A stretch of DNA of 53,289 nucleotides. Origin: a virus. Each line of letters starts with the position of its first letter. The stretch's first letter is position 1. Location of the stretch: IMG/VR virus record IMGVR_UViG_3300025652_000005, positions 1 through 53,289 of that record; one strand, 5' to 3'. Below are positions 3,413 through 42,845 of this stretch, one piece after another. Both the position numbers and the translations under genes were made by a program. The notes below the pieces were generated by a model. The model saw only the letters and a list, made by a program, of their open reading frames with translations, searched no databases and was not told where the DNA came from.

Positions 3413-3676
3413 ATGGCATATGAAGATAGAGAAAAGCTAGTCTCCCACGCACGCGAGACTAGGGATCATAAGCTGGAGTTAAGTGACATTGACATGCTGC
3501 GAAACATCGAGGACGCAGCAAGTTTCGCTGCGTTTGCGACAGCTCGCGCTGCGTGGGTTACTTATCGTCAAGCCCTGCGCGACTACCCCGCGCAATTCCC
3601 TGAGATAATTGAAGACGACTTATCCAACGCTCCTGAAATCCCACTCTCACCATCAGAAACAGTTCAAGAGGACTAA
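3413..3676 (+). CDS. Tail fibre assembly chaperone-like protein
   Basis: 87 residues with a strong AAGGAG site seven bases before ATG. The segment around AAWVTYRQALRDYPAQFP resembles the conserved 'SDW...W..YRQALRDLP' signature of phage tail-assembly chaperones (Phage_tail_APC type), which help fold or attach fibres. The position just after the Gly-rich fibre gene supports this. The N-terminal half is charged and helical. The acidic, Ser/Pro/Glu-rich C-terminal tail is probably disordered. The function is assigned by motif and context only. Confidence 0.6.
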   Translation: MAYEDREKLVSHARETRDHKLELSDIDMLRNIEDAASFAAFATARAAWVTYRQALRDYPAQFPEIIEDDLSNAPEIPLSPSETVQED

Positions 3677-3677
3677 A

Positions 3678-3902
3678 ATGAAGCTCATAACTTATACTGA
3701 CGAGTTCGGCCTGTCGCATGTATTCGATGCTAACCGGGTTATGTTTACAATGTCCCAACCCACCGGAGACGTAGACGAGGACGGCAAATTCAAAAAGATT
3801 TTAACCAAGGTCGCCCTTAACGAAAACATGGGCTTCATCCTCGCAGACGAAGACCCCGACGCGATGATTGCTCGGATCAAAGAGGCAAACGGAATTGGCT
3901 AA
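3678..3902 (+). CDS. Hypothetical small protein
   Basis: 74 residues starting at MKLITYTDEFG. I chose this start, not the longer in-frame one at 3609, because AGAGGA lies just before it and the previous gene stops two bases upstream. No domain recognised. The C-terminal part (ILADEDPDAMIARIKEANGIG) looks like a short helix after a beta-rich body. It is part of the tight fibre/chaperone/basic-protein operon and is probably a virion or assembly accessory protein. Confidence 0.6.
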   Translation: MKLITYTDEFGLSHVFDANRVMFTMSQPTGDVDEDGKFKKILTKVALNENMGFILADEDPDAMIARIKEANGIG

Positions 3903-3924
3903 GAAGCCCGTCTCAAAAAAGGAT

Positions 3925-4167
3925 ATGCCGTGCAACAAGCCGAAACGCACGCCTTCTCACAAGACCAAATCGCACGTCGTAAAGGCGTGCGATAAAGGTC
4001 AGGAGAAAGTGATCCGCTTCGGTCAGCAGGGTGTCAAAGGCGCGGGTAAGAAGCCTACTACCGCTGCCGAAAAGGCACGCAAGAAATCTTTTAAAGCCCG
4101 CCACGCAGACAATATAAAAATAGGAAAGCTCTCCGCTGCGTACTGGGCAGATAAGGTGAAATGGTAA
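3925..4167 (+). CDS. Small basic conserved phage protein (DUF6321-like)
   Basis: 80 residues from MPCNKPKRTPSHK; the frame is open back to 3868 but that start would overlap the previous gene. The sequence is strongly basic, with conserved-looking RFGQQGVKGAGK, KARKKSFKARHADN and a terminal SAAYWADKVKW. I recognise this pattern from small conserved proteins of marine cyanophages and other phages (DUF6321-like, from memory). The role is unknown; its charge suggests DNA or RNA contact, perhaps inside the capsid. Its stop overlaps the next start in TAATG, so the two are probably translationally coupled. Confidence 0.7.
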   Translation: MPCNKPKRTPSHKTKSHVVKACDKGQEKVIRFGQQGVKGAGKKPTTAAEKARKKSFKARHADNIKIGKLSAAYWADKVKW

Positions 4168-4307
4168 TGAGCCTCTATGACCACATAAACGCTCGTAAAA
4201 AGGCTAAGACCTCTCGGTCCAAAGCAAAGTCCACTGTCACCCCGAAGGCTTATTCAGAGATGAAAAAGAACTTTGGGAAGCCCAAACCAAAGAAAAGGAA
4301 AGCCTAA
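4167..4307 (+). CDS. Small Lys/Arg-rich protein, 46 aa
   Basis: Starts in the TAATG overlap with the stop of the previous gene and stops in another TAATG overlap with the next. The protein MSLYDHINARKKAK... is about one-third Lys or Arg and has no hydrophobic core. Its N-terminal part (MSLYDxINARKKA, TSRSK) resembles short conserved proteins I know from marine phages. Two coupled junctions make it a real gene in spite of its size. Function unknown; a nucleic-acid-binding or DNA-condensing virion component is possible. Confidence 0.65.
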   Translation: MSLYDHINARKKAKTSRSKAKSTVTPKAYSEMKKNFGKPKPKKRKA

Positions 4308-4417
4308 TGCCTACAGTTGGAAAAAAGAAGTTTCCGTACAGCAAGGCGGGGAAGATCGCAGCCAAAAAGGCCGCTGTTAAGACGGGTAAGCCTGTCAAGA
4401 AAAAGAAGGGATATTAA
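4307..4417 (+). CDS. Small Lys-rich protein, 36 aa
   Basis: Encodes MPTVGKKKFPYSKAGKIAAK followed by a further basic tail ending KKKKGY. The MPTVxKKKFPY start is familiar from very short conserved phage proteins. Start and upstream stop overlap as TAATG. Fourteen of 36 residues are Lys. No fold can be predicted. As with its neighbours, an internal DNA-associated role is a guess from charge. Confidence 0.6.
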   Translation: MPTVGKKKFPYSKAGKIAAKKAAVKTGKPVKKKKGY

Positions 4418-4419
4418 AG

Positions 4420-4503
4420 ATGGCCAAGAACGCACTCGTAAAAAAATCTTGTCAGCCAGTCACGGCTGGAAAGCCCATCATGAAGGGTGGCAAAAAGAAA
4501 TAA
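4420..4503 (+). CDS. Small Lys-rich peptide, 27 aa
   Basis: MAKNALVKKSCQPVTAGKPI then MKGGKKK. It starts two bases after the preceding stop and reuses the same operon arrangement. It is very short, so the call rests on position in a cassette of four basic genes and on the lack of any other reading for this stretch. One Cys is present. Function unknown. Confidence 0.45.
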   Translation: MAKNALVKKSCQPVTAGKPIMKGGKKK

Positions 4504-4515
4504 GAAAGCCTCAAC

Positions 4516-4803
4516 ATGACTGTCAAAAGCAATATCAAAGACCTCATATCTCTATCCGAAAGCTCAGGCTGGGAAGTTCTCCATAAGACTATGGAGGCTG
4601 AAATTCTCCAGCTTGCTTTGAACATGGCCCGCAGCTCAGAAATGACGCAGCAGCACATGGACTTTCAGAGGGGTGCAATATTCGCAGCAGAGCAAATGCT
4701 CAGTATGCCAACTAAGCTCATCAACAAACTTGAAGGTGAACTTTCACTAGAAGACGCGACGAGCCGCCAAGGCCGCTCAGAAAGGACTAAAGATGGCTAT
4801 TAA
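4516..4803 (+). CDS. Hypothetical helical protein
   Basis: 95 residues, mostly helical (SGWEVLHKTMEAEILQLALN, QGAIFAAEQML-like pattern), with a polar C-terminus. It overlaps the scaffold gene by 11 nt. Short helical proteins just before the scaffold often are head-assembly accessories, but I recognise no family. Confidence 0.6.
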   Translation: MTVKSNIKDLISLSESSGWEVLHKTMEAEILQLALNMARSSEMTQQHMDFQRGAIFAAEQMLSMPTKLINKLEGELSLEDATSRQGRSERTKDGY

Positions 4804-5815
4804 TCCAGGGATGGACGCGGAGCAAATCGCCCGCATTTCAGCAAGCCGGATGGGTGACGCACCACAGGCTGCTGCACCACAGGCACCACCGCCACCAAAA
4901 GATGCACCGCCCACTGATATGGAGAAAGCAGTTGAGGCTGCATCGCCAGATACGGAAGGTGACAAGCAGGCTCAGGACGCTGTGATGTACAACGTCTCGA
5001 TTGGTGGCCAAGACCGCAATCTTTCGCCCCAGCAAATCGGGTCTACATTTGAGCGCTACCGTGATCTCAATCATAAGAACGCCACGAACAAGCCGATGTA
5101 TGACCTATCAGATCGTTTGATGCGCGACACAGGTGCCAGTCCAGAACAAGCAGCGAAACTTATGGACGCGGCCCTAAAGGCACTGAGCAAGAATGTTAAG
5201 ATGGGTAAAAACCGTCCTAAGCAGGACGGCGTTGCAGCTCCAGAGCAGCCGCAGTCAATGCCGCAAGGCGGCAACCAGCTCAACGAAGAGTGGTCAAAGT
5301 ACGAAGAAGAGAATGCCATCAGCCTGCCACCGGGGTATCGTGAGCAGTACGAACGCATGGGCCGCATGGAAGAGAGCATGGGCAAGCAGCTTCAGATGAT
5401 GCAGGGCGTCTTGCAAAGCGCTCAAAATGCTGGCCAAGGCGCGAACCAATCACGCGAAGACGCTCTTAGTAACCGCGACGAAGCTGTAATGCAGTCTATT
5501 CGTAACAACCTTGACCGCGCTCAACAGGAAGCTGGCCTTCCAGATGACGCTGTTGGAGATTTCCAGTCTTACGCGATGGAACGTGGTTACACCGCAGAAG
5601 ACTTTGCTGATGCCTCTCTTACTAAGAAGGTCATCGGTGACTTCAAGAACCAGATGAATACCCCTGAGTTCGAGCGGTTGCGCGAAATGTCCAAGCGCCG
5701 CGAAGCATACCTTACATCCCAATCGGGTGGCCCAACGAGCCAAATGGCTCCCTCTGGGGGGGATGATACCCTCGCACGACTTGCACAATCCGCCAACAAC
5801 AAGCGGATGGGTTAA
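4793..5815 (+). CDS. Probable capsid scaffolding protein
   Basis: 340 residues. An N-terminal Ala/Pro-rich disordered stretch (about 20-45) is followed by charged, glutamine-rich helical regions: KMGKNRPKQDG, a YEEENAISLPPGYREQYERMGRMEESMGK-type coiled segment, and a basic C-terminus ending NNKRMG. Its position directly before the major capsid gene, the highly polar composition and the basic C-terminal end match phage scaffolding proteins, which guide procapsid assembly and leave before maturation. No protease motif is seen. The gene ends three bases before a strong terminator. Confidence 0.7.
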   Translation: MAINPGMDAEQIARISASRMGDAPQAAAPQAPPPPKDAPPTDMEKAVEAASPDTEGDKQAQDAVMYNVSIGGQDRNLSPQQIGSTFERYRDLNHKNATNKPMYDLSDRLMRDTGASPEQAAKLMDAALKALSKNVKMGKNRPKQDGVAAPEQPQSMPQGGNQLNEEWSKYEEENAISLPPGYREQYERMGRMEESMGKQLQMMQGVLQSAQNAGQGANQSREDALSNRDEAVMQSIRNNLDRAQQEAGLPDDAVGDFQSYAMERGYTAEDFADASLTKKVIGDFKNQMNTPEFERLREMSKRREAYLTSQSGGPTSQMAPSGGDDTLARLAQSANNKRMG

Positions 5816-6018: not shown

Positions 6019-7185
6019 ATGGCTGGTATCCAAGGACTACGGGGCTCAGGTCAGTTTGCTACTGACTATCGCCCGAAAAACTATCGCGAATTATTTACGC
6101 TCCTCGAGCCAAATGGCAACGCGCCACTGAACGCCTTGTTGGCAATGACTTCTTCTGAAGCCACTGACGACCCTGAGTTCAAAAATTTCCGTGACGAGCT
6201 TCCTGCTCGTACATTGACCGTAAACGGTGCTCTATCAAACTCTGCTACAACTATCACTGTAGACGCTGGCAATGACGTGTTGTTTGCAGTTGGTGGAACT
6301 ATCGTTGTCAACGCTACGACAAACGAAGTTATGCGTTGTACTGCTGATGCGACCGCAACAACATTGACTGTTGAGCGTGGCATCGGTGGCGGCGCTGGCG
6401 CTATTGCTGACGGCGCTGAGTTGTTCATCGCGGGTTCTGCTTTCTCTGAAGGTGCATCAACACCGACAGGCGTATCATTCGACGCAAGCGTTGCTTCGAA
6501 CTACACGCAGATTTTCCGTACGGCCTTCACAATCACCAACACTCTACGCGCGACTAACTTGCGTACTGGTGACAAAGAAGACGAGATGACGACAAAAGCT
6601 CTGAAGATGCACATGCAAGACATCGAGCGTGCTATGTTCTTCGGTAAGAAGTACGAAGCAAACGGTTCGTCTTCACAGCCTACTCGTTATACAGGCGGCT
6701 TGATCAACTCGATCACTAACGTCAACGACCGTTCAACATCTTCTAACGTAATGACAGAAGACCAGTTTGACCGCTCCTTGATCGAAGACGTGTTCGCGTT
6801 TGGTGGAAACCAAAAGATCATGTTCTGTGGTGCTAAAGTTGCTGGTCACTTGCAGAAGTTCGGCAAAGACCGTTGGTCTCCAACAGTTGTTGAAGGTGCG
6901 TACGGCGTTGGCCTTACTCGCTACTCAACATTTGCTGGTGATCTTATGGTTCACTTGCACCCACAGTTCCGCCAAGTACCTGGCATGGAAAATGCGGCAG
7001 TCATCATCGACTTCCCGCATCTGAAGTACCGTTACATGGAAGGCCGTGATACGTCCTTGCTTCGCGACCGTCAGGCCAATGGCGCTGACCAAGCGGCACA
7101 CGAGTACCTCACAGAGTGTGGTCTCGAAATGTTGCAAGACAAAACGCACCACTACATCAAAAACTGGACAGCTACGTCTGCATAA
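6019..7185 (+). CDS. Major capsid protein (SU10-like, DUF5309 type)
   Basis: 388 residues with an AAAGGAG site before ATG. The sequence resembles the SU10-type major capsid proteins: conserved-looking parts are the N-terminal TDYRPKNYRELFTLLEP..., the E-loop/helix region around KALKMHMQDIERAMFFGKK, and the C-terminal KYRYMEGRDTSLLRDRQ...GADQAAHEYLTECGLEM. It assembles the HK97-fold head shell. A Thr/Val/Ala-rich insert at about 65-130 (SNSATTITVDAGNDV, IGGGAGAIADGAELFIAG) looks like a beta decoration domain. It is isolated between two strong terminators and has its own leader, consistent with very high expression. No prohead-protease gene is evident. Confidence 0.9.
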   Translation: MAGIQGLRGSGQFATDYRPKNYRELFTLLEPNGNAPLNALLAMTSSEATDDPEFKNFRDELPARTLTVNGALSNSATTITVDAGNDVLFAVGGTIVVNATTNEVMRCTADATATTLTVERGIGGGAGAIADGAELFIAGSAFSEGASTPTGVSFDASVASNYTQIFRTAFTITNTLRATNLRTGDKEDEMTTKALKMHMQDIERAMFFGKKYEANGSSSQPTRYTGGLINSITNVNDRSTSSNVMTEDQFDRSLIEDVFAFGGNQKIMFCGAKVAGHLQKFGKDRWSPTVVEGAYGVGLTRYSTFAGDLMVHLHPQFRQVPGMENAAVIIDFPHLKYRYMEGRDTSLLRDRQANGADQAAHEYLTECGLEMLQDKTHHYIKNWTATSA

Positions 7186-17957: not shown

Positions 17958-18010
17958 TATTAGGGTGCTCTAATTTAATCTGTAAAAAATCAGGTTAAAT
18001 GGAGTACCCG

Positions 18011-21000
18011 ATGGCTGAAGAATTTACAAACCCGTTCACCGACGACATTTTTGGTGAGAGCGCATCGGGTAGTACCAGTGACTACACGAACTTATCAGGG
18101 GCAGACCTTGTTAAAGACCGTGGGTTTCTGGACGATGTTCGGACTTACTACGAGACCAAGGGCCAGACGTTTTCAAGCACATCCGAAATGCTGGACGAAT
18201 GGTACACAGATCGGCGCTGGAAGGACAGCAACTTTGCATCAGCAGGTAAAGACCTAGCCGAATACGCAAACGCCGGAACAAATAAGCAGCTAATGACCAA
18301 GCTATCGAAGGCTTGGAGAAACGCCCCAGAGCGCGGTTCGTTTGCCAGCCAAGTTTGGGACTATGGCCTTGCTACCGTAGCCGATCCAATCAACTTCATT
18401 CCGTACGCGGGTGCCGCTTCCAAAGCCGCCAACGTAGCGAAGCTCGCGAGAGCCGCAGGCGCGACAAAGAACGCAGCCGTAAGTGCCGCCGTTAAGAGTG
18501 GCGCGAAGCGAGGCGCTGTCATCGAGGGCGGCGTAGGTGCTGGCATGGGCGCTGGTATGGACGCCATCCAGCAGACGCGCGAAATCCAACAGGGACTATC
18601 TACAGAATACGACTATGGCCGTACGGCGACATCTGCCGCAATCGAAGGCACCCTTTCAGCGGGTATCGGGTCCGTAATTGGCGCATTTGCTGCACGCAAC
18701 CCTGCGCGGGAAGGCTTGAAGTGGAGCAATTCAAACCTTGCGGGTGAGATTGCGGTCCAGAAAACCGACATCGAGCTTTCGGTAAAGGAAGCTGATGCAA
18801 TTCTAGCTGACCCTTTACGCGCACCAGACCACGCCGACGCGCAGGAGGCAAAGAAGAACGCCGAGCTTGAGGTCGCTAAGATAAACGCGCACGCTGCAAA
18901 GGTAGACAAGCTGGACGAAGAGGCCGAGGCTCTTGCTGCCCGCCTTGCCAGTGAGGGTGGAAACACGCCAGAAACAAAAGCAGCCTTCGATGAGAAGATT
19001 GCTGAGTTCAATGCGGCCACAAGCTCAAGCGACATTCCAGAAATTGAGCTTGCTGACCCAGCAGTTGCTGCCGCAACGCCGACAGCAGCGGAGGTAGTAA
19101 AAAAAGCCGAAGCAGAGGCCGAAGCAAAGACCACAGCCGCCAAACCAAAGCCAGAAACTACAGTGGAGGGTGATGAGGCTGAGGCTGAGGCTACATCCAC
19201 AACTGAGGAAACGCCTGCAACTGAGGCTGAGGCTGAGGCTGAGGTATCGCCAGCGGCTGAGGCAGCCACTGAAGCAGCTCCAACTACTGAGGCAGCTCCA
19301 ACTACTGAGGCATCGCCAACTACTGAGGCTGCACCAGAGGTACTGGAAGTACCTGCGGTCGAAGGCCGGAAGTTTAAGTTTGATAAGACTAAAGACGAAA
19401 GCCTACAAAAAGCTCTGGGCAAAAACTTGGCTACGCACAAGAATAAAGTTGAGAAAGCGAACGAGAAGAACGCGACTGCACTTGAGCCACTTACGCAAGA
19501 AGACCTTGAGAAGATTGTCGCTGGAACTCCGAAAGGTACGAAGGACGGATTTATTGCCCCTGCGGGCCGCAAGGCAATCCGCCGCTTTCTTGCCGCTCGT
19601 GAGGGGCGTGTTCCTAGCATCAAAGCTGCTAGTAAAAATGCGAATGCTGACGCTAAGGTTGATGACGCCAGCTTCGTAAACCCAGAGGTCGCTGAGGTAA
19701 AAACTGCGAAAGAAGACTTTGCTAAGTCCGAAGCAGCCGAGGCCGTAGCCGTAGAGGCTGAAGTCGAAGAGCTGGCAAACAAGGCCAACGAAGTATTCGC
19801 AAGAGTGATCAAGCTCTCTAAAAATTCTCTCAATGCTATACGCATCAACCAGTCGTTCGAGGGCATAGCGTCTGGGCTAGAAGAAAATGTTGCCGCAGCC
19901 GTACGACGCCGCATCGAAGATTACAAAACCAACGTGATCCCCGTAGTCGAGAAGTTGAAAAGAAATGAAAAAGTAGCAGCGCTTCGGGTCGCGGAGGCTG
20001 GGCAAGCCGAGCGTATGTACGGAGGCGACTTTAAATACACCAAAAGCCGCATTGCTGACAGCACCGCCAAGTCGATAAATGCACTAGAGACAGACCTCGA
20101 AGCGGGTGTCACTACATCCGTATCCACCAGCAAGAAGACTGGTGAGAAGGTAGTCACGAAGAAAGTAAACTCACTGCTCAAGCCTGGTACGGAAATCGGC
20201 CTTGAGGGTGGCGGCACCATTACTGAAGGCGCGGGCGCGTTTCGTCGTGAGAACGAGACCCTGTTGGCGGCCCAATCACAGGCTGAAATGGACGTTGCTC
20301 AAGGTAAGAACAAGGCCGTTTATAGCTTCCCAGCTCGCGCAGGTATGCCGCTTGTTGGCGTGCGGGGCGTTGGCCGTGGCAAACGTGGCGTCGCTACTGA
20401 AGGACAAGTTGTCTACGGTGCAATGACCCAGATCGGTAAAAACGACAGCAAGTTTAAGGTGTACGCAACCGAGAAAATGGCACTCGAAAGCCTTGGCTTG
20501 TCTAAGGGTCAGATCGGCATTGATACATCCAAAATCAAACCTATCGAGAGCACGGAGGAGCTTGAAGCTGCCAGAGAAAAGGCGTTCAAAAAGTTCTCCA
20601 AATCGAAGGGCGATGTTGATGCTCTTGAGGAAGACCTTGCAGTCGCTGACGCTCAAGGCCGCGAAGGTGGCTTGGATGTCGATCCTGCTCCCGAAGTAGT
20701 AGTTAAGGATGGCCGAGGTAATGTAGTTAAGACGGACATTCCAGAAGCACCTACGACACGCAACGGTAAGGTTTTGGTTCTACTGCCGCGCACTACAGAA
20801 GTAGCACCTCGGGTAGCAAGCAAATCCCAGATCGCGTCTGACGCGGGTGTTGCTGCCTTGCTGGGTGGTAAGCCTGCTTCGTTGTTCCGCATCGGTTACG
20901 TACCTGCTGAGATCAACGGCAAATCAGCGCAAAGCCAAGCAACCAAGCGCAACCTAATCCGAGACAACTTTGAGCCGCTTGATGAGGCTAACTCATTCGA

Positions 21001-24000
21001 GTTCACACCTAGTGCAGAGCCGGAAGCTGAAATGCCAGCGCGTCCTCTCACTCAAAAAGAAGCTGATAATACTGTCATCGACATCTCCGCTTTGGCTTCA
21101 ACACCAGAAGGTAAAACCGTCGCTCAGTTCCTGTTCCAAGGCGACAACATTGCAAACGCGAAGTCCCTTGATGGGTTGATCGCACCAACCTTCGATGAGT
21201 TCCTAAAATCCAAGCCTACTTTGAACCGCTTGCAAGAAAACTTAAACTTTCTTGAGAGAGACGACTTTAAGATTACTACTACTCTTGGGGATAAAGAAGT
21301 TGAAATCCCTCTGAGCTTCCGCATCAAAGCCCTAAACGCCCTTCACACAGTCATAAAGGCTGAGGCTCCGCACGGGGTCAAAAAGCCAACGGTAGACATC
21401 GAGGCGTCCATCTCTTCTCTGAAGAAGGTCATGTCTGGTGTGGGTGAAAAGGTCTCAAACCAGATCGAGTACCTTCTTCGCCAAGCAGTACCGATTGACA
21501 AGGCACCTATCTTTGGTTCGCCATCAGACGGCGGCAGTGCGGGTAGCGTTTTCGTCTACGGTGCTAAGTCCGAAGACTACAACAAGGTCATGCTGGACAT
21601 GTCCTCCTTTGACGCTGATGGACAGCGTACGGGGATCACTGGTTCGTACACTGTCATGCACGAATTGGGCCACTGGATGTACGAAAACGTCTTAGATGCA
21701 GAAACCAAGGGAGAGTTCTGGGGCAACCTGGATAAGTTCTACGACGAGAATGGCCGCTTCACTGAAGGCGCGAGCGAAGTAGAGGGTGGCTTGACTGCCC
21801 TAGAAAAGCTCACTCCATCTGTAGAAGTAGACGGCGTACGCGCGGGTGTTGCTAATGGCAAAACAAACCCACAAGAATACTTTGCAAACCAGTTCTCGCT
21901 CTACATGCACCACAAGTTCAATAGCCCACTAGCGACTGCTAATGCGAATGTTTTGAAGAAGGCAGCCAGAGTTCTACAGAAGCTATGGCTTAAAATGACC
22001 AATCGCGACATCATTGATCCAGAGATGGAAATGATGTTCGACAAGTTGATTGCTGACAAGGACGTTGCTCTGCAAAAGCAGTTCACATTCCCAGTGAAGG
22101 CAACCACATCGGTTGGCAAAACTCTTGAGAGCCGCTTCATCCAAATAAAGGATGCACTCCGAGACTTTGAAGCGGCCATCCAGAACTACCCAGACACCAG
22201 CGACCCAGAAAAGATGGCGACATCAGCGCGGGCGCTGTCAAATGTCTTCAACGGCATGTCTATGACTAAGAAGACCAAAGGTTACTTGGTGCGCAAGGCA
22301 GGCAACGTCGCCTCGGATCGCGCGGCGCTTGACCGATCCACAGGTGTTCTGAAGTTAATGAACGGCAAGCAGCTACGTGGTATGCGTGCAATCTCCAAGG
22401 CGATCAACGAGGCGACTATAAGAACCGACAGCCGCATCTCACAAGCTGGCGATGACATGGAAGTGTTCGGCGGAGCTTACCACTCTGAGATGGAAGCATC
22501 ACTTGTTGATCTGTACAACTCTTCAATGAAAGAGTTCACTGAGGAGCTAAAGACCTCCATGAACGACATGTTCATGGACATCGAGTACGGTGATATGGAA
22601 GCGTTCTTGCCTTCCGAAAACCTCTTGAGCCTCCGCGCCAGCTACAACATCAATGGACCGATCCTGGCGAAGAAAAAGAACTTCGAGCAGAAAATCAAGA
22701 GAGAGGTCAACCGTCAGCGCGGAACATTCTCAAGGTCTCTATCCAGAGCAATGAAAGCCACGGGCAAAGCAAACGCCAAAGCCTTCAAGGGAGACATCGT
22801 TGCGGGTACTAAAGGCAGTGAAGCTAATAGCTACAATCTGGAAGAAAGCGTACGTGAATACGGACGCCAGATCGGAGCAGATGGCGTGCCGACAGCGTTC
22901 GGAAAGAAGTTAGCGAACCGAGCTAAACATCTTATCAACACTCAAGTCGATGATGTGAACCTGACAGAAGAAGAGCAGGCTATCTACCACACATGGCAGT
23001 CCAAGACTGTTGGTAAGGGCGCTAAAGGTCTAGCCAACGGGGCCAAAATCGACGAGCTGACGATGGCCCTCTCGATAACTATTGATGGTGGAGAGATTAA
23101 GGGCATCGGTGGCACACCGGAGCAAATCCAAAACATCACACGCCACGTCATTAAAGAGCGTTATAAAGCTCGGAAATCCAAGGCTGCGCTCAAAGACAAG
23201 AACGTCACCGACGCCATCGAGATAGAACAGCTACAAGAAGCGGGCGTCGCCTTCGAGAACGGCATCCCGCAGAACGCAAACTTCACGATGCGTGGCTTCC
23301 TGAGAGGCATCACGCACCGCGCTCAGGATGTGGAGTACAACGCACGTACGCTGACAGCACGGCTTGCACGTCTTGATGCGATCTTGCCACAAAGCGTAGA
23401 CGACTTGACCTACAAGGGGTTCCGCAAAGCGATCCGTCTTGCTGGGGTCAACTTAACTCGTGACGGTGACATAACGCAGTCCGTAAGGTTGGTGTCCGAG
23501 AGCTTGTATGGCTCTAACGTAGTCTCTCAATCATCACGCAACGCTATCTCAAAGTACGCAAGCATCCTTGACCGCGAGCCAGCAGATGTGTTCTCTGAGA
23601 TTGTGACCGAGAGCGTGGATACGCTGTCTTCGAAGGATCAGATCAAGGCGATGCGTCGAAGCATGGTCGGAGAAGACCTCGATGGTGTTGATGAATTATT
23701 GGGTGAGATCGAAGATAATTTGGTTGATGCTCTCTCGTACGTGTTCAACGGCTTGGTATCATCAGCTCCTGCGCGTAACCGTTTCTACGGCATCGCCTTC
23801 CCAGAAGACTTGTTCTCTACAGGTGGTACGCAAAAAGCCAGCACGCGCTCACGTTACCAGAGTGACGTACCTACGGAGTACGCAAGCGACTATGCGTACG
23901 AGTTACTAGACAACTACAGCAAGGCCGCCCGCAGCTCCATCGAGGAGTTCACGGGTGGAAATGTTCGCGTGTTCTATAGAAACAACGACACGAACGGATC

Positions 24001-27000
24001 AGTGGGTCGGGGCGCTTACGTTACATCTCGTCCAACAAACACGCTTGAAAACATGGCGGGTGATATAATCTCATCCGCTCCAGAGGCGAACCAAGATGAT
24101 GTCGCTGATTACGTCGATGCTCTAATCGAACTTCGCGGGCAAGTTAATGCTGCTCGCCGCGACCCGATGTCCTCATCAGAATACTTTGAGCGCATGTACG
24201 CACTAGACGATGCCTTGTCCCAGGAGATTGGTGAACTGGGCGCTCGTATGGATACGAACGTGACGCCTGTATTCGTACGCGACACGACGCCAGCAATATT
24301 CAGCGGAAACATGAACTCCCTTTCTCCTATCGTGCAGGCCATGAAGGGACACTACGTTGAAAGAGTTGCTTCGGGTATGAGTGGCCGTGATCAAGCCAAT
24401 CAGATCAAAGCGATTAGAGGAAACTTCACGCCAGCACAAATGCTGGACACGCTGACCGACATTGCTGGTGGCGAACGTCAGTTGCGTGAAGCCATGACTG
24501 AAATGGGATACACCTCCTTGAACATAGGACCAGACAAACTGGTTCTGAAAAAGAGCAGCGTACGCGATGTTCGCTCGCAGTCCTTTGAGAGCTCAACACC
24601 TCTTCTGGGTGAGGGTGGCGTCGAGCCAGCACTGAATGGCGCGATAGCATCTCAAATCTTCGCAGGCTCTGACCCAATCAAGGTTTTCTCACAGGGCGCT
24701 AAAGCTCTTGAGGATGCTGGTGTAGCGCCGAAGGCCGTTGACGGCATGGTCTCAGTCGCTCGCGGCAGAGGAATGCCAAAAGACGCAGCAGCGGAAATAC
24801 GCAAGTCCAACATCTACAACCCGCTTCGTACGAACTCACGCATAATGAAGCGGTCTGGCATGTCTTTCCTTGCTAACTTCTGGGAGCCCGAAGCGGGCGG
24901 CGGGGGCCACTTCGAACGTACGAATGCTAAGATGGGCAAGTTCCTGATGCCTATGACACGTATGCTAAAAGAACTTCCTGATAGCGCGGGCATAGCGAAG
25001 CGTTACTTCCAAACAGGCCCAGTGATGATGGCGGAGAGTGCTATGGGCGCTATGGGTATGGCCCCGAAGCGACGCAACACGCAGCCGATCAGCCACATGC
25101 GTATCGTTACAGCTTTGAGAAACAGCGATACAGCATCACAACTTGTGGGCAAAGAGATGGAAACTTATCAGCATATCCGTTCTTATTTGGATAATGCCGT
25201 TGCTCGTTTGAGAGCGTCTGGCAACATGGTTGGTGAGATCAAAGACAACTACTTCCCACAAGTGTGGCGCAAGGATTTGATCGAGGCTGACCCTGACAGG
25301 TTCAAGCGAGGCGTATCTAAATACTTCATGGCTGAGAATGCGTCGATGCAAGGCTCAGAAGTCTTAACGCAAGCGGAGGCAATGAAGCGTGCTGGTCGCT
25401 TGGTAGAGAAACTACTTGATCAAGACGGCGTGCTTTCTAGCCCGTCAAAAAGTCTAAAAAGCACATCCGGCAAAGGCAACGAAGATAGCCTAGACTTCCA
25501 GCGGATGATGCGACTTCAAGAGTTCCCTGAGTTCACCGACTTTGACAGCCCAGATACACTTGCGCCGTTCTTGGAGAACGACTTGCTTGTGTCCATGACA
25601 AAGTATTCCGACAGTATCGAGCACCGTATTGATCTGACAGAAGAGTTCGGGCCTGCCAACCACGGCTTCCACGACTACATTGCGATCTTGGCTGACCCGA
25701 TGCACGGCAAGCAGACTATTGCGACACTGCTTTCATCAAACAAAATCCTCAAGGCGAACCACTCACGCATGGGTGGCTCTGGGGAGGGCGAGCTGGACAG
25801 GGTGTTCACGGACACTTTCTTCATGGCCCCGATCAAAGACAAGTACGTTGCCGAACAAGCTGCTAAAAGCCTTATCGAGAAGGCTTCTAACGGTGCATCA
25901 GTCGCTGAAATGCAGGCTGAGATCATGGGCATCCTTGACGCGAAGATCAGCAACACACCCGAAGCGGCTCAAATTCGTAACAACTTCTCGAAGCGTGCGG
26001 CTGCAATAGCAAACGCATTGGTTGATACGAAAGGTCTTACAAAGATAACTTCCCAGGATAACGTCAAGCACGCCCAGGGCTTTATGAACGCAGCCATGCG
26101 TAAGCCAGTAGACGGCCAACATGGTCTGTACTCCATGAAGAATGCGTCCAAATGGTTGCGCGGTGTGAACGCCGTAACGCTACTCAGCTTTACAACCCTG
26201 ACATCCTTGGCTGACTTGGCGCTGCCGCTCATTCGTACTGGCGATCTCAAGTCTTACTATACAGCTCTCAAGCAATACGCACGCGAACCTGCGTATCGTG
26301 ACATGATACGCAACGTGGGTGCAGCTACGGAGAATGCGGTTCATCAGCGTCTAACAGTTGCGCATGGTGTAGATAGCACTCAGTTTATGACTGGGTTCTT
26401 TAACTCCACACTTCTTACGCCTTGGACAGATAGTATGCGTAACGTGGCAGCCGCCGTAAGTTACGAGCACGTAAAGGCGCAGCACCGCATCCTTCGTGAA
26501 GCGCCTTCGACCCGACAGGGCCGCATCGCTCGAAAGATTTTGCAGCAGGAGGGCTTGCAGGAGCTTATCGAGGACAGCAGCATTGACCTTGATCTCATTC
26601 TGGAAAGCCGTGGGTCTGCAAACGAGCACCCTCTCAACGACAAACTGGCTACGTCTCTCATCAAGCTGACAAACCAGATGATCTTCACTCCGAACCCGAA
26701 TGACCTACCATTGTGGGGTGCAACGCCACTCGGCGCTATTGCAATGCAGTTGAAATCGTATCCTCTAATGATGCAGCGCATGGTAAATGGTGTGGTGGCC
26801 GAAGCGTTCGCTGGGAGTACGCCAGCGAATAGAGCATCTAACTTCGCCAAGGCTTTCGTTGGTCAGTCTGACAACAGACTTGGGCCACTCGGTGCTCTTC
26901 TTGTTGCGGGTCCAGCGTTCGGTGCCGCATCAGTTGCAGTAAAAGATGTTGTTCAAGGGCGTGGCGGGGAGGACAACCGTGATTTTGCCTTGCGTGAACG

Positions 27001-27445
27001 CAGCCTATCCAAAACTGTGACCACAGCTTTCGAGGATAATCCAGAGCTAGACCGCAATCTTGGCCTATACTTCGACGGCATGGTTGCGCTCGGCGGGATG
27101 GGCTTCGTAGGTGAGCTGATGTACGACGTTGCCTCGAACGCGGATAATGGTGCGTACGGTACGCAGCGTACGATGGAGGGCATCTTCGGCCCTACACTTG
27201 GCCTGTTCAACGACGCATCATCTGTCTTGCAGGGCGCACGTTCCGTCTATGATGGAGACGAGGCTAACGGTGAGAAGAGGTCAGCTATCCGCGAGATAGT
27301 CGGAAGAGTTCCGGTCCTCGGCGGCGTAAGTTGGGCAAAGGAAGGCATAATCGACGTTTTGGGTGGCGAACGTGGCCAAGCTGGGCGACCATCCTCCGGC
27401 GGTTACGGCAGCGGATATGGCAGCGGTTACGGCAGCGGTTACTAA
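18011..27445 (+). CDS. Giant virion protein (3,144 aa) with zincin and ART-like segments
   Basis: Start taken at 18011 because GGAG lies six bases before it; an in-frame ATG at 17999 has no such site. Parts in order: Ala/Gly-rich, partly membrane-seeking region about 110-220; Glu/Ala/Thr-rich low-complexity stretch about 310-450 with repeated PTTEA units; a zincin motif HELGH at residues 1217-1221 with a possible third ligand Glu 1289 (NPQEYFANQF); an ADP-ribosyltransferase-like segment about 1985-2180 (VFYRNNDTNG...GRGAYVTS and GYTSLNIGPDKLVLKKSSVRD); long helical regions; hydrophobic helices about 2960-2985; and a GGYGSGYGSGYGSGY tail. Known giant 'polyvalent' phage proteins combine such enzymes and enter the host with the DNA; applying that here is inference. 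It takes the place of the largest internal ejection protein. T7-type RNA polymerase motifs (an N4-like virion RNAP) were looked for and not found. Confidence 0.75.
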   Translation: MAEEFTNPFTDDIFGESASGSTSDYTNLSGADLVKDRGFLDDVRTYYETKGQTFSSTSEMLDEWYTDRRWKDSNFASAGKDLAEYANAGTNKQLMTKLSKAWRNAPERGSFASQVWDYGLATVADPINFIPYAGAASKAANVAKLARAAGATKNAAVSAAVKSGAKRGAVIEGGVGAGMGAGMDAIQQTREIQQGLSTEYDYGRTATSAAIEGTLSAGIGSVIGAFAARNPAREGLKWSNSNLAGEIAVQKTDIELSVKEADAILADPLRAPDHADAQEAKKNAELEVAKINAHAAKVDKLDEEAEALAARLASEGGNTPETKAAFDEKIAEFNAATSSSDIPEIELADPAVAAATPTAAEVVKKAEAEAEAKTTAAKPKPETTVEGDEAEAEATSTTEETPATEAEAEAEVSPAAEAATEAAPTTEAAPTTEASPTTEAAPEVLEVPAVEGRKFKFDKTKDESLQKALGKNLATHKNKVEKANEKNATALEPLTQEDLEKIVAGTPKGTKDGFIAPAGRKAIRRFLAAREGRVPSIKAASKNANADAKVDDASFVNPEVAEVKTAKEDFAKSEAAEAVAVEAEVEELANKANEVFARVIKLSKNSLNAIRINQSFEGIASGLEENVAAAVRRRIEDYKTNVIPVVEKLKRNEKVAALRVAEAGQAERMYGGDFKYTKSRIADSTAKSINALETDLEAGVTTSVSTSKKTGEKVVTKKVNSLLKPGTEIGLEGGGTITEGAGAFRRENETLLAAQSQAEMDVAQGKNKAVYSFPARAGMPLVGVRGVGRGKRGVATEGQVVYGAMTQIGKNDSKFKVYATEKMALESLGLSKGQIGIDTSKIKPIESTEELEAAREKAFKKFSKSKGDVDALEEDLAVADAQGREGGLDVDPAPEVVVKDGRGNVVKTDIPEAPTTRNGKVLVLLPRTTEVAPRVASKSQIASDAGVAALLGGKPASLFRIGYVPAEINGKSAQSQATKRNLIRDNFEPLDEANSFEFTPSAEPEAEMPARPLTQKEADNTVIDISALASTPEGKTVAQFLFQGDNIANAKSLDGLIAPTFDEFLKSKPTLNRLQENLNFLERDDFKITTTLGDKEVEIPLSFRIKALNALHTVIKAEAPHGVKKPTVDIEASISSLKKVMSGVGEKVSNQIEYLLRQAVPIDKAPIFGSPSDGGSAGSVFVYGAKSEDYNKVMLDMSSFDADGQRTGITGSYTVMHELGHWMYENVLDAETKGEFWGNLDKFYDENGRFTEGASEVEGGLTALEKLTPSVEVDGVRAGVANGKTNPQEYFANQFSLYMHHKFNSPLATANANVLKKAARVLQKLWLKMTNRDIIDPEMEMMFDKLIADKDVALQKQFTFPVKATTSVGKTLESRFIQIKDALRDFEAAIQNYPDTSDPEKMATSARALSNVFNGMSMTKKTKGYLVRKAGNVASDRAALDRSTGVLKLMNGKQLRGMRAISKAINEATIRTDSRISQAGDDMEVFGGAYHSEMEASLVDLYNSSMKEFTEELKTSMNDMFMDIEYGDMEAFLPSENLLSLRASYNINGPILAKKKNFEQKIKREVNRQRGTFSRSLSRAMKATGKANAKAFKGDIVAGTKGSEANSYNLEESVREYGRQIGADGVPTAFGKKLANRAKHLINTQVDDVNLTEEEQAIYHTWQSKTVGKGAKGLANGAKIDELTMALSITIDGGEIKGIGGTPEQIQNITRHVIKERYKARKSKAALKDKNVTDAIEIEQLQEAGVAFENGIPQNANFTMRGFLRGITHRAQDVEYNARTLTARLARLDAILPQSVDDLTYKGFRKAIRLAGVNLTRDGDITQSVRLVSESLYGSNVVSQSSRNAISKYASILDREPADVFSEIVTESVDTLSSKDQIKAMRRSMVGEDLDGVDELLGEIEDNLVDALSYVFNGLVSSAPARNRFYGIAFPEDLFSTGGTQKASTRSRYQSDVPTEYASDYAYELLDNYSKAARSSIEEFTGGNVRVFYRNNDTNGSVGRGAYVTSRPTNTLENMAGDIISSAPEANQDDVADYVDALIELRGQVNAARRDPMSSSEYFERMYALDDALSQEIGELGARMDTNVTPVFVRDTTPAIFSGNMNSLSPIVQAMKGHYVERVASGMSGRDQANQIKAIRGNFTPAQMLDTLTDIAGGERQLREAMTEMGYTSLNIGPDKLVLKKSSVRDVRSQSFESSTPLLGEGGVEPALNGAIASQIFAGSDPIKVFSQGAKALEDAGVAPKAVDGMVSVARGRGMPKDAAAEIRKSNIYNPLRTNSRIMKRSGMSFLANFWEPEAGGGGHFERTNAKMGKFLMPMTRMLKELPDSAGIAKRYFQTGPVMMAESAMGAMGMAPKRRNTQPISHMRIVTALRNSDTASQLVGKEMETYQHIRSYLDNAVARLRASGNMVGEIKDNYFPQVWRKDLIEADPDRFKRGVSKYFMAENASMQGSEVLTQAEAMKRAGRLVEKLLDQDGVLSSPSKSLKSTSGKGNEDSLDFQRMMRLQEFPEFTDFDSPDTLAPFLENDLLVSMTKYSDSIEHRIDLTEEFGPANHGFHDYIAILADPMHGKQTIATLLSSNKILKANHSRMGGSGEGELDRVFTDTFFMAPIKDKYVAEQAAKSLIEKASNGASVAEMQAEIMGILDAKISNTPEAAQIRNNFSKRAAAIANALVDTKGLTKITSQDNVKHAQGFMNAAMRKPVDGQHGLYSMKNASKWLRGVNAVTLLSFTTLTSLADLALPLIRTGDLKSYYTALKQYAREPAYRDMIRNVGAATENAVHQRLTVAHGVDSTQFMTGFFNSTLLTPWTDSMRNVAAAVSYEHVKAQHRILREAPSTRQGRIARKILQQEGLQELIEDSSIDLDLILESRGSANEHPLNDKLATSLIKLTNQMIFTPNPNDLPLWGATPLGAIAMQLKSYPLMMQRMVNGVVAEAFAGSTPANRASNFAKAFVGQSDNRLGPLGALLVAGPAFGAASVAVKDVVQGRGGEDNRDFALRERSLSKTVTTAFEDNPELDRNLGLYFDGMVALGGMGFVGELMYDVASNADNGAYGTQRTMEGIFGPTLGLFNDASSVLQGARSVYDGDEANGEKRSAIREIVGRVPVLGGVSWAKEGIIDVLGGERGQAGRPSSGGYGSGYGSGYGSGY
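19276..19330 (+). repeat. 18-bp tandem repeat inside giant gene
   Basis: Three units close to CTCCAACTACTGAGGCAG encode PTTEAA/S. Just upstream GAGGCT hexamers are repeated. The segment lies in the acidic linker and probably varies in length between related phages. Confidence 0.8.
27399..27442 (+). repeat. 12-bp tandem repeat at end of giant gene
   Basis: Three to four units of GGCAGCGGTTAC-like sequence encode the terminal GSGY repeats. Confidence 0.8.
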
Positions 27446-40782: not shown

Positions 40783-41005
40783 GTACGTATTCCTTTCTAA
40801 GATGCGGAAGTTTTTCATCGACCAGGCGCATGATGCGCTTGATCTTTTCTTCATCGGCGTGGCGTACGCGCTTTGATCGGATGACGTACGCTACGTGCCA
40901 CCACCAACCGTGCGGTCTCCATCCATCACAAAACGCATACCAACTGCGCTTCATCGTGGGCGAAGACCTATAGTCGAATGAGGTGGGCATTTTCAGTTCA
41001 CGCAT
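40742..41005 (-). CDS. Hypothetical basic protein, 87 aa
   Basis: Trp/His-rich centre (SWYAFCDGWRPHGWWWHVAYVIRSKRVRH) then a helical basic C-terminus. It overlaps the vWA gene stop and the SleB-like start. No family recognised. An inner start at 40990 (MPTSFDY) is possible. Confidence 0.55.
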   Translation of the reverse strand: MRELKMPTSFDYRSSPTMKRSWYAFCDGWRPHGWWWHVAYVIRSKRVRHADEEKIKRIMRLVDEKLPHLRKEYVRGSNYTSGTLPRY

Positions 41006-42845
41006 GAGCGTGACCCTGACTAATCAGCAGCTTTTCTAGGCTGCCGAGTAATGTTTCTCCAAGTTTATTGAAGTCCGTGAGCACAGATTTGCTAAACATT
41101 TTGCTCACATCAATACCGATACCGATGCCGATGACCTCGATACCTATGGCCTCCATTTCCTTGACCAGCGTGCTACACATATCCACCTCACGGTGTCTGC
41201 CGTTCGGTTCGCCATCCGTCAGCATGAGCAAAATCTTACGCGGCTCATGCCAACTCGACATCATATTCGCATACGTCATCAGCGCTGCGTAGCTTGGCGT
41301 ATCGCCCCCGACGGGTTGGAAGTTCAGCGTCGTCTGTAGCTTTAGATAGTTCTCGTGAGAATGTTTGTGTGTCACGATCCAAGGAAGATCACCCATCACA
41401 TCTCGACCGCCGTAAAGGCTTAGGCCACCCCATTCGGTCACATCGTACTTGACACCAGCACGACCGAGCGCATCATTCACAACGTGTACAGCCGACATTG
41501 TGTTGATTGAGCTCATGCTGGTCGAACCATCGACCGCAAGCATCAGCCGCGTCTCCGATGTTCGAACGTCTTCCGTACGTGCAAAGATGTTCTGATTACC
41601 CGCAACCAATTGCGACAACCTACGGCGATCAATACGCCCCGAACTGTACCCGCCCTCGTTGCGCTTACTCTCTTGGCTCATCAACAACCGCGCGAGCCTC
41701 GCACCGTACGCGCTGACATCCTTTCCGATTAGTGCCCGAGCACCCAAATTTTCTTGGGCCAGTAAGTCCTTGTGTTTGTCTGCGTTTCGCCATTGTCCAA
41801 CAACTATATCCTTCACACGGGCCTTTACGTTTGCAATCTGAACCTTTTGTCCCAGCGATTTCCACAGGTCTAGGTGCGTATCGTGTACCGCACTAAACTG
41901 CGTGCAAACCCTGCGCGTATTAGGCTTAGGGCCGTACTTACCAAACACGTCTTGCATGTTATCGGCTTTGCGATCCTCGGCATCTTCCATGCTGAAGCCC
42001 TTTGGCTTCGGCTTGTCAGCATCAGGCTTGTCAGCATCAGGCTTGCCATCACCATCACCCTCGCCGTCAACTTCCTCGCCTTCATCTTGGTCTGGCTTAT
42101 CCTGCCCCTTGCCCTTGCCCTCGCCATCACCATCCTCGCCCTCTGGGTTTGGCTTTGGATGGGTTGGCTTTGGCTGTGGTTCATCTTCCTCACCAAGCTC
42201 TTTGCCCAGCGCCTTGACCCGCTTGCTTATCTTCTTCGCAAGCTCGTAGCTTTCACCAGTATCCTCTGTCGCGTACATCTCCTTCGCAAACTTTCGAGCC
42301 TCTTTGGCTAGATCGTCAGGCATGTCCTCGATGTACTGATCGAGCGCATCGCTTTCGTACCCTGCATTGTGCCGTGCCTGTTGCAGCGCAGCGTACGGTA
42401 TCTCAGTCCACCACGTTTCGCGCCGTGCGGCGTTCTCTTCTGGGTTGTCCTCCCAGTGCTGGTTCTCGTTGCCCAACACGCTATCAACAGTCGCTTGCAA
42501 GCTACGCTTGGCACCTGAGTATTTCTCACATGCCTTGCGCTCCACCAGAACATCCTCGCAAGCGTTCCATATTCCATGCAGATGCTTGGGTGGCTTTTTC
42601 GCCTTTGCCAAACCGAAGTCGGTATCCGTTACATGCCCGACCTCATGGATGTGATAGCCTCTAGCTATCGCCTGATCCTTGGGTGTCATGGTTGCTGCCA
42701 TGTCCATTTCGGGAAGGTTGATTGTCTTGCCGTCGGTATGGGCACCTTGACCTATGAACGTGGTGCGTATGCCTTTCGTACCCATGATCTCCGACAACTT
42801 ATCGAACTCCGTTTTGAGTGCGGCCACTGAATTTTGGTTAAACAT
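40998..42845 (-). CDS. CobT-like vWA-domain protein with HEVGH motif
   Basis: 615 residues, AAGGAT upstream of ATG. Three parts: N-terminal region with a zincin motif HEVGH (residues 67-71) followed by NACEDVLVE near 94-102, a possible third ligand; an acidic Gly/Asp/Lys linker (about 219-280) with tandem DADKP repeats; and a C-terminal von Willebrand A domain with MIDAS motif DGSTS (Asp 439, Ser 441, Ser 443) and LTDGEP near 545. The HExxH plus vWA arrangement and the MoxR ATPase encoded just upstream fit CobS/CobT-type pairs seen in phages. Such a pair works like a AAA+ chaperone with a metal-dependent adaptor; cobalt chelation is not implied here. Target unknown. Confidence 0.85.
   Translation of the reverse strand: MFNQNSVAALKTEFDKLSEIMGTKGIRTTFIGQGAHTDGKTINLPEMDMAATMTPKDQAIARGYHIHEVGHVTDTDFGLAKAKKPPKHLHGIWNACEDVLVERKACEKYSGAKRSLQATVDSVLGNENQHWEDNPEENAARRETWWTEIPYAALQQARHNAGYESDALDQYIEDMPDDLAKEARKFAKEMYATEDTGESYELAKKISKRVKALGKELGEEDEPQPKPTHPKPNPEGEDGDGEGKGKGQDKPDQDEGEEVDGEGDGDGKPDADKPDADKPKPKGFSMEDAEDRKADNMQDVFGKYGPKPNTRRVCTQFSAVHDTHLDLWKSLGQKVQIANVKARVKDIVVGQWRNADKHKDLLAQENLGARALIGKDVSAYGARLARLLMSQESKRNEGGYSSGRIDRRRLSQLVAGNQNIFARTEDVRTSETRLMLAVDGSTSMSSINTMSAVHVVNDALGRAGVKYDVTEWGGLSLYGGRDVMGDLPWIVTHKHSHENYLKLQTTLNFQPVGGDTPSYAALMTYANMMSSWHEPRKILLMLTDGEPNGRHREVDMCSTLVKEMEAIGIEVIGIGIGIDVSKMFSKSVLTDFNKLGETLLGSLEKLLISQGHAHA

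Follow-up and report, generated by a model that had tools for sequence, protein, structure and literature searches.

The window, by which we mean the whole 53,289-base stretch of viral DNA analysed here, carries a cassette of four consecutive plus-strand ORFs, g1 to g4, which are real, conserved genes and occupy a slot at which related modules are exchanged among the relatives of this virus. All four encode tiny, strongly basic proteins (net charges of +20, +14, +13 and +8 from g1 to g4; pI 10.4-10.8). We give about an even chance to the explanation that they represent one version of an exchangeable kit of basic prohead or internal-head proteins, comparable to the internal proteins of T4. Where the genes lie, how strongly charged their products are and the fusion of the g1 domain to a prohead-type protease all suggest that these proteins act within the assembling head. 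Support for a head role is indirect: scaffold and capsid genes neighbour the slot, the protease fusion occurs in Vibrio phage ICP1, and modules found in relatives recur in a cyanomyovirus protein for which a few records give the label 'structural'.

All genes of this region lie on the plus strand. A tail (fibre) assembly chaperone (3413..3676; Pfam Phage_tail_APC PF16778, E 1.7e-9) provides the left context, followed by g0 (3678..3902), a 74-aa acidic ORF that forms the left border of the slot and overlaps g1 by 8 nt. The cassette itself, with stops at 4167, 4307, 4417 and 4503, consists of g1 (3895..4167; a 90-aa protein with a TTG start, PHROG 7595), g2 (4167..4307; 46 aa, MSLYxxIxxRKK..., PHROG 25774, with an alternative ATG at 4161), g3 (4307..4417; 36 aa, MPTVGKKKFPYxxxG..., PHROG 33179) and g4 (4420..4503; a 27-aa peptide with KKxCxxVxAGKPxxKK and without a listed family). 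At the right border, 12 nt beyond g4, lies g5 (4516..4803), which encodes a conserved, acidic 95-aa protein. It is followed by a scaffold-like protein (4793..5815), which matched no Pfam family above the cut-off and is named by its position and acidity (pI 4.9, net charge -10), and by the major capsid protein (6019..7185; Pfam SU10_MCP PF17236, E 7.7e-39). The products of g0, g5 and the chaperone, scaffold-like and capsid genes are all acidic. Elsewhere in the window, the minus strand holds an ORF at 40998-42845 that we take to encode a VWA-like protein by its DGSTSMSS motif, adjoining one at 42869-44398 that is presumably a CobS/MoxR-type AAA ATPase-like protein by its GHTGTGKT motif.

Coordinates, charges and Pfam neighbours agree with the first-pass annotation, which had placed four tiny basic genes in a row between tail and scaffold genes. 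The sizes it gave, 80, 46, 36 and 27 residues, stand for g2 to g4. The first gene most likely begins at TTG 3895 and encodes 90 aa, rather than beginning at ATG 3925, because close relatives start at the matching place: this codon is ATG in L092, L095 and L096 (which share one array) and TTG in L137 and L160, with the ATG two codons earlier in L087. The TAATG joins described for the whole cassette are present at g1/g2 and g2/g3, while g3 and g4 are separated by a 2-nt gap.

Counts under one uniform rule and Markov simulations argue that the cassette did not arise by chance. The uniform rule (first ATG, 25-80 aa, K+R>=25%, D+E<=8%, K>=R) returned exactly four tiny Lys-rich ORFs on both strands of the window, and these were g1 to g4. 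Under a chaining rule that required K+R>=28%, a length of 25-120 aa and a spacing of -12 to +10, basic ORFs formed chains of at most four members on the plus strand and one on the minus strand; in 40 first-order Markov simulations of one strand each, the longest chain was 1 in 39 runs and 2 in the remaining run. Median dN/dS (Nei-Gojobori, pairs with 0.05<pS<0.6, which are not independent) was 0.193 for g1 type A2 (54 pairs), 0.089 for g3 (32 pairs) and 0.179 for g4 (16 pairs), together with thinly sampled values of 0.105 for g1 type A1 (4 pairs) and 0.146 for g2 (5 pairs). The corresponding medians for the neighbours were 0.223 (g5), 0.088 (scaffold-like gene) and 0.062 (capsid gene). Thus, purifying selection was detected in all four families, with medians of 0.09-0.19, and the ratio near 1 that had been named beforehand as counting against the genes was not seen.

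Database comparisons gave the same picture. The first three proteins matched PHROG families over most of their length: g1 (PHROG 7595, E 3.1e-32, residues 6-90 on positions 10-96 of a 96-position profile), g2 (PHROG 25774, E 3.4e-14, residues 1-40 of 46) and g3 (PHROG 33179, E 1.8e-6, residues 1-33 of 36). None of these families has an assigned function, g4 had no PHROG match, and no NCBIfam match was found. Searches of phage records by tblastn with g2, g3 and g4 returned no match; these are low-complexity queries that were run with the BLAST filter on, so this result is no proof of absence, and the PHROG models did detect g2 and g3. Very short genes invite the suspicion that they are spurious ORFs in a Lys-rich stretch, and g3 and g4 are likely overlooked by many gene finders, but we consider this highly improbable given that the families are conserved, dN/dS lies at 0.09-0.19, starts and overlaps are conserved and three of the genes belong to PHROGs. 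Tiny basic genes in marine phage genomes are often skipped or left unnamed. The first-pass annotation had called these genes too short for most gene finders, which fits phage SIO1, where the g1 homologue is unannotated, but not CRP-810 or CRP-235, where a g1 homologue (gp50) and a g2 homologue (gp48), respectively, are annotated.

By sequence comparison, the window virus groups with Roseobacter phage CRP-810, described in the available part of PMC11288001 as founding a proposed family. CRP-810 was the closest isolate among the matches listed (70% identity for the capsid protein, 39% for the scaffold-like protein, which is gp46 in CRP-810, and 43% for g5), and its TerL, at 58.4% identity, was also the best among the eight matches listed. 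Core genes are homologous and syntenic, and the order g1, basic genes, g5, scaffold-like gene and capsid gene is kept. Within the CRP-810 slot, gp50 matches PHROG 7595 (E 5e-31) and gp49, a further basic module, matches PHROG 16028 (E 1.6e-30); gp48 had no family match and gp47 is the counterpart of g5. We considered gp49 as a g2 homologue and rejected this assignment on the basis of its PHROG 16028 match. This 52-aa module (L082:6252-6410) is annotated as 'ribonucleotide reductase A subunit', probably a misannotation, and the PHROG 16028 module also occurs inside longer phage families, for example in a profile of 435 positions, where it matches positions 338-380 (E 1.3e-8). The window also contains a single 3,148-aa ORF (17999-27445) that ends in GYGSGYGSGY; it may be the counterpart of an 'internal virion protein D' listed in the available part of the CRP-810 paper (PMC11288001).

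Related loci were taken from a capsid-protein scan (best 80 of 128). Among 61 loci, including the window, in which the slot was at least partly readable, we distinguished 50 arrays, a count that leaves out L088, L100, L140 and possibly others. The score that we devised for choosing ORF chains gives preference to ATG starts, greater length, close spacing and sequence resembling a ribosome site. The arrays contain between 0 and 7 basic modules, with some contigs ending inside the slot, and K+R was at least 19% in 168 of the 198 small ORFs (<=95 aa) of the distinct arrays. About nine types of tiny basic module, assigned by hand-made patterns, were recognized. Recurrent modules are g1, as type A1 (the window type) or A2; g2; g3; g4; D (30 aa, ...CPCTQG); E (about 52 aa, ...SAYASG...KCRK); F (about 68 aa, ...KPCGRK...); and G (about 40 aa). 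A1 and A2 are homologous (E 6.5e-24 in a single profile-pair comparison), and A2 itself matches PHROG 7595 (E 5e-13), while D and G, like g4, matched no PHROG. In arrays with the g4 type assigned, g4 is the final module ahead of g5, and the scaffold-like gene comes after g5 wherever g5 was found. Five loci (L157, L158, L159, L162 and L164) retain g0 and g5 but lack g1 and have just a 24- or 37-aa basic ORF, so no single module is essential, a point against the head reading. These data establish the slot as an exchange site for related modules in the relatives of the window virus.

Coupled stop and start codons had been taken in the first-pass annotation to suggest fixed ratios of the four proteins. 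Among 106 junctions of adjacent basic genes in the arrays, 40 had a spacing of -1, 13 of -4 and 3 of -8, with 24 gaps of 0-5 nt and 26 other junctions; since the chaining score rewarded close spacing, coupling is if anything over-counted. Coupling is therefore common without holding at every junction, and slots contain anything from 0 or 1 to 7 basic modules, so the idea of fixed ratios is not supported.

Other ORFs were seen in and around the slot. In three loci (L144:5811-5927, L155:3527-3649 and L161:5507-5626), a g3-type ORF is located outside the slot, downstream of the capsid gene, which suggests that single modules move. Five loci (L101:2666-2938, L102, L125, L145 and L146) have, inside the basic array, a protein of 90-116 aa whose N-terminus has a membrane-like segment; it belongs to PHROG 8909 (no function) and has a weak Rz-like spanin match (E 0.023). 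A 211-aa ORF (MTFANPFGFPI... and variants) lies between g0 and g1 in L092, L095, L102, L105-L110 and others; it is found upstream of g1 in many relatives and is missing from the window.

An AlphaFold2 model of g1, built with 75 sequences (mean pLDDT 82, pTM 0.68), predicts a beta-hairpin (strands 27-33 and 36-42) and two helices (57-76 and 81-89), and 19 columns of the 75-sequence alignment are invariant, including H22, H27, H70, W84 and W90. Comparison of the model with the PDB by Foldseek gave 59 matches, none at E<=0.001 (best E 1.9), and VIA-align gave one PDB row (Z 2.0, rmsd 8.8 over 60 residues). Against BFVD there were seven matches at E<=0.001, six of them unnamed and one from an uncultured phage; weaker matches with a probability of 1.00 included ICP1 ORF125 (E 6.9e-3), an XkdF protein (E 7.4e-3), a ChaB-annotated protein (E 9.7e-3) and a 95-aa Tunisvirus protein (E 1.4e-2). 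The g1 sequence profile returned just two chance-level matches among solved structures, at E 0.22 (ribosomal protein L18) and 0.32. In Pfam, g1 scored below the gathering cut-offs of DUF5754 (13.0 vs 27.4 bits) and DUF6321 (14.1 vs 28.5 bits). Weak matches (E<=1) to these families were present in 49 of the 75 g1 family members (best 2.2e-4) and in 32 of the 75 (best 4.9e-3), respectively, making them at most remote relatives. Residues 13 and 32 of g1 (window 3931-3933 and 3988-3990) are both Cys in 43 of 85 distinct homologues, neither in 42 and mixed in none, counts of a kind that kinship inflates. Such an all-or-none pair fits a predicted disulphide or metal site; zinc binding as a general property of g1 was rejected, as half of the homologues lack both Cys.

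Homologues of g1 extend beyond this family, occurring in 49 of 50,697 phage records and in at least 593 IMG/VR stretches. We examined the 80 closest of the latter, within which conservation is overstated. In these, the density of tiny Lys-rich ORFs on the strand of g1 was 4.83 per 10 kb up to 700 bases from g1 and 1.00 elsewhere, compared with 0 near g1 and 0.06 per 10 kb elsewhere on the opposite strand. At least one such ORF was near g1 in 39 of the 80 loci, and none by this rule in 41. Across 84 loci (the 80 closest and four isolates), g2 proper was found in 7, g3-type modules, E and F in 8 each, a g4-type module in 1, and D and G in none; the count of 7 for g2 supersedes a figure of 19/84 that came from a mixed profile of both types. 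In CRP-235, g2 directly follows the g1 homologue (PHROG 25774, E 5e-12). The neighbours of g1 are thus often basic, yet variable. Two isolates count against a head reading: in HTVC026P the g1-domain gene is found upstream of terminase and portal, at a distance of about 1 kb, and no capsid gene was found in the stretch examined around the g1-domain gene of CRP-902.

A lysozyme gene immediately precedes the g1 homologue in CRP-810 and another closely follows it in S-EIV1. These neighbours, together with the high charge and the chance-level L18 match (E 0.22), favour the idea that the proteins never enter the particle and are instead intracellular nucleic-acid binders or other late-step helpers, acting in RNA binding, translation or lysis. 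The location of the cassette among head genes and the protease fusion speak against this idea, which we regard as unlikely.

That fusion was found in ICP1 ORF125, which has an N-terminal Peptidase_S78_2/XkdF domain (residues 36-160, E 6.6e-10) and, near its C-terminus, a g1 domain of about 75 residues (190-264; E 2.3e-5 with the g1 profile against ORFs of six loci). The A2 sister profile also matched the C-terminal part (E 6e-8 among 3,457 ORFs), and tblastn with the last 98 residues recovered free-standing homologues in CRP-2 (6e-11), S-H1 (1e-5), KBS-S-2A and CRP-207 (7e-5 each). In the window, by contrast, the domain is a stand-alone gene, and none of g1 to g4 matched the XkdF/Peptidase_S78_2 protease domain (PF14550). 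Many of the listed ICP1 records name ORF125 'capsid protease', and it adjoins gp124, gp123 and gp122, which in the available part of PMC10945586 figure as the scaffold, a predicted decoration protein and the coat. According to the same part of that paper, particles assemble in E. coli from coat and scaffold when ORF125 is absent, and protease inhibitors block scaffold cleavage in that system; both findings count against the head reading. The name 'gp125' is absent from the available text (PMC10945586).

The ICP1 fusion also fits a different role inside the prohead, in which the proteins would be assembly adaptors only, binding scaffold, capsid or protease and leaving with the scaffold. DNA would not be their target, and the g1 domain would serve for prohead targeting. 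The location of the fused domain, on an XkdF-type protease beside the ICP1 scaffold and coat, and the acidic scaffold-like protein directly downstream of the slot both favour adaptors. However, this role alone leaves unexplained why dissimilar modules are almost universally rich in Lys and poor in D/E, and why arrays of up to seven modules exist; we judge it rather unlikely.

A second kind of domain sharing involves T4-GC119, a protein of T4-like cyanophages. Module E was detected in six of seven cyanophage regions, at E 5e-18 to 1e-28, and the best matching row shared 91.7% identity with it over 36 residues. T4-GC119 also contains an F-like segment (pair E 7.5e-7; the F profile itself missed E 1e-3). 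It also has J segments that resemble, by eye, a separate 36-aa ORF beside g1 in L006, and a DUF6321 end (E 1.3e-23) that resembles the end of A2 (pair E 5.8e-6) and hardly that of A1 (probability 8%). Profile search of the cyanophage regions detected neither the g1 domain proper nor g2, g3 or g4 in T4-GC119. Unlike the separate genes of the window and its relatives, T4-GC119 (e.g. AYR02000 of S-E7) is a single long chain that contains acidic linkers. The records of S-E7 and RB11-B name it a 'structural protein', most rows calling it hypothetical, and records of S-B68 and Sf-FS3 put a 'structural' label on genes that match parts of it. The available part of PMC3037559 lists T4-GC119 as a hypothetical protein, which counts against the head reading.

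The acidic linkers of T4-GC119 contain x-N-E or x-M-E before 12 of 25 listed module starts and lack it before the other 13, counted without statistics in 8 ORFs from 7 phages related by descent (L170:3023-4612, which is that of S-E7, and L173-L178). Examples such as QNE/S, TNE/A, QME/G, INE/R and VNE/G are reminiscent of xxE prohead-protease sites. Sequence searches of the PDB with ICP1 ORF125 and T4-GC119 gave just a Sau3AI stretch and designed repeat proteins, which we set aside; the former pairs residues 89-161 of the S-E7 protein with residues 18-90 of Sau3AI 4pxg_A (phmmer E 2.9e-5) and may reflect composition or a real relation. Modules E and F recall Ascovirus P64, a basic viral protein with two-cysteine (vs2C-ad) modules and DNA-condensing stretches according to the available part of PMC6163548. 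Neither module matched PF08793 (vs2C-ad) or any other family at E<=1, so the likeness is an analogy only.

The closest functional parallel to the cassette would be the T4 internal proteins IPI, IPII and IPIII. As described in the available part of PMC9026906, these are small, basic, several per phage and poorly conserved, take part in head assembly, associate with the gp22 core, are present at about 300-360 copies each per head and bind DNA in low salt. The g1 to g4 products are likewise small and basic, and adjacency to head genes is an additional feature of this locus. In contrast to the T4 proteins, which have a capsid-targeting (CTS) propeptide and an (L/I)xE cleavage site, g1 to g4 contain, on reading, neither such a propeptide nor LxE or IxE, which counts against the head reading; their genes also overlap or are closely spaced, in a slot next to those for scaffold and capsid.

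T4 IPI also serves as the model for another role, in which the proteins would be ejected and host-directed, countering restriction or other host functions, with module exchange mirroring different hosts. Exchange among close relatives does resemble the poor conservation of the T4 IP genes (PMC9026906, in the part available). Nevertheless, the 19 invariant columns among 75 g1 sequences are unlike arms-race proteins, even if conservation is overstated in the closest 80 of at least 593 loci, and no match to anti-phage-system models (PADLOC) was found, a weak argument since that library covers defences rather than inhibitors. A host-directed role is therefore improbable in our view.

Returning to the internal-head explanation, we infer late expression, scaffold binding, virion presence and DNA binding of the cassette proteins. 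The genes would be expressed late, within the tail-scaffold-capsid gene run, and the charge and small folded modules of their products would draw them to the acidic scaffold (pI 4.9) in the assembling prohead. As the scaffold-like protein is acidic, the basic modules could ride in on it. They would then remain in the head, where they would bind and partly neutralise the packaged DNA, and some may be ejected together with it. DNA compaction, one of the roles proposed in the first-pass annotation, is compatible with the sequences. One g1-g4 set contributes +55 charges; if each protein were present at 360 copies, an assumed T4-like number, the set would offset roughly a fifth of the DNA phosphates.

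A broader reading, possible yet tentative and with the balance against it, is that marine tailed phages use common tiny basic prohead 'beads' in several formats. CRP-810-type phages would hold the beads as separate, overlapping, exchangeable minigenes beside scaffold and capsid genes, T4-like cyanophages would string them into the polyprotein T4-GC119, and ICP1-type phages would carry one as the C-terminal tail of a prohead protease. More speculatively, the prohead protease might cut T4-GC119 after x-N-E or x-M-E into single beads inside the head.

We found no paper on the cassette genes in the open-licence PMC literature, and the small genes are not mentioned in the available parts of PMC6163548, PMC10945586, PMC3037559, PMC13365592, PMC9026906, PMC11288001, PMC9038755 and PMC11323111. 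The PHROG families of g1 to g3 were already known; within the literature searched, the exchange slot, the link between g1 and a capsid protease and the parallel with T4-GC119 are new. The domain shared with the capsid protease of ICP1, a phage with working genetics, and the sister modules shared with a cyanophage protein give these functionally unassigned families a first concrete position in prohead assembly that can be tested. They also suggest that a common set of exchangeable parts can serve phages for making internal head proteins, and if the shared-bead reading is true, the kit would neutralise phage genomes in a protamine-like manner.
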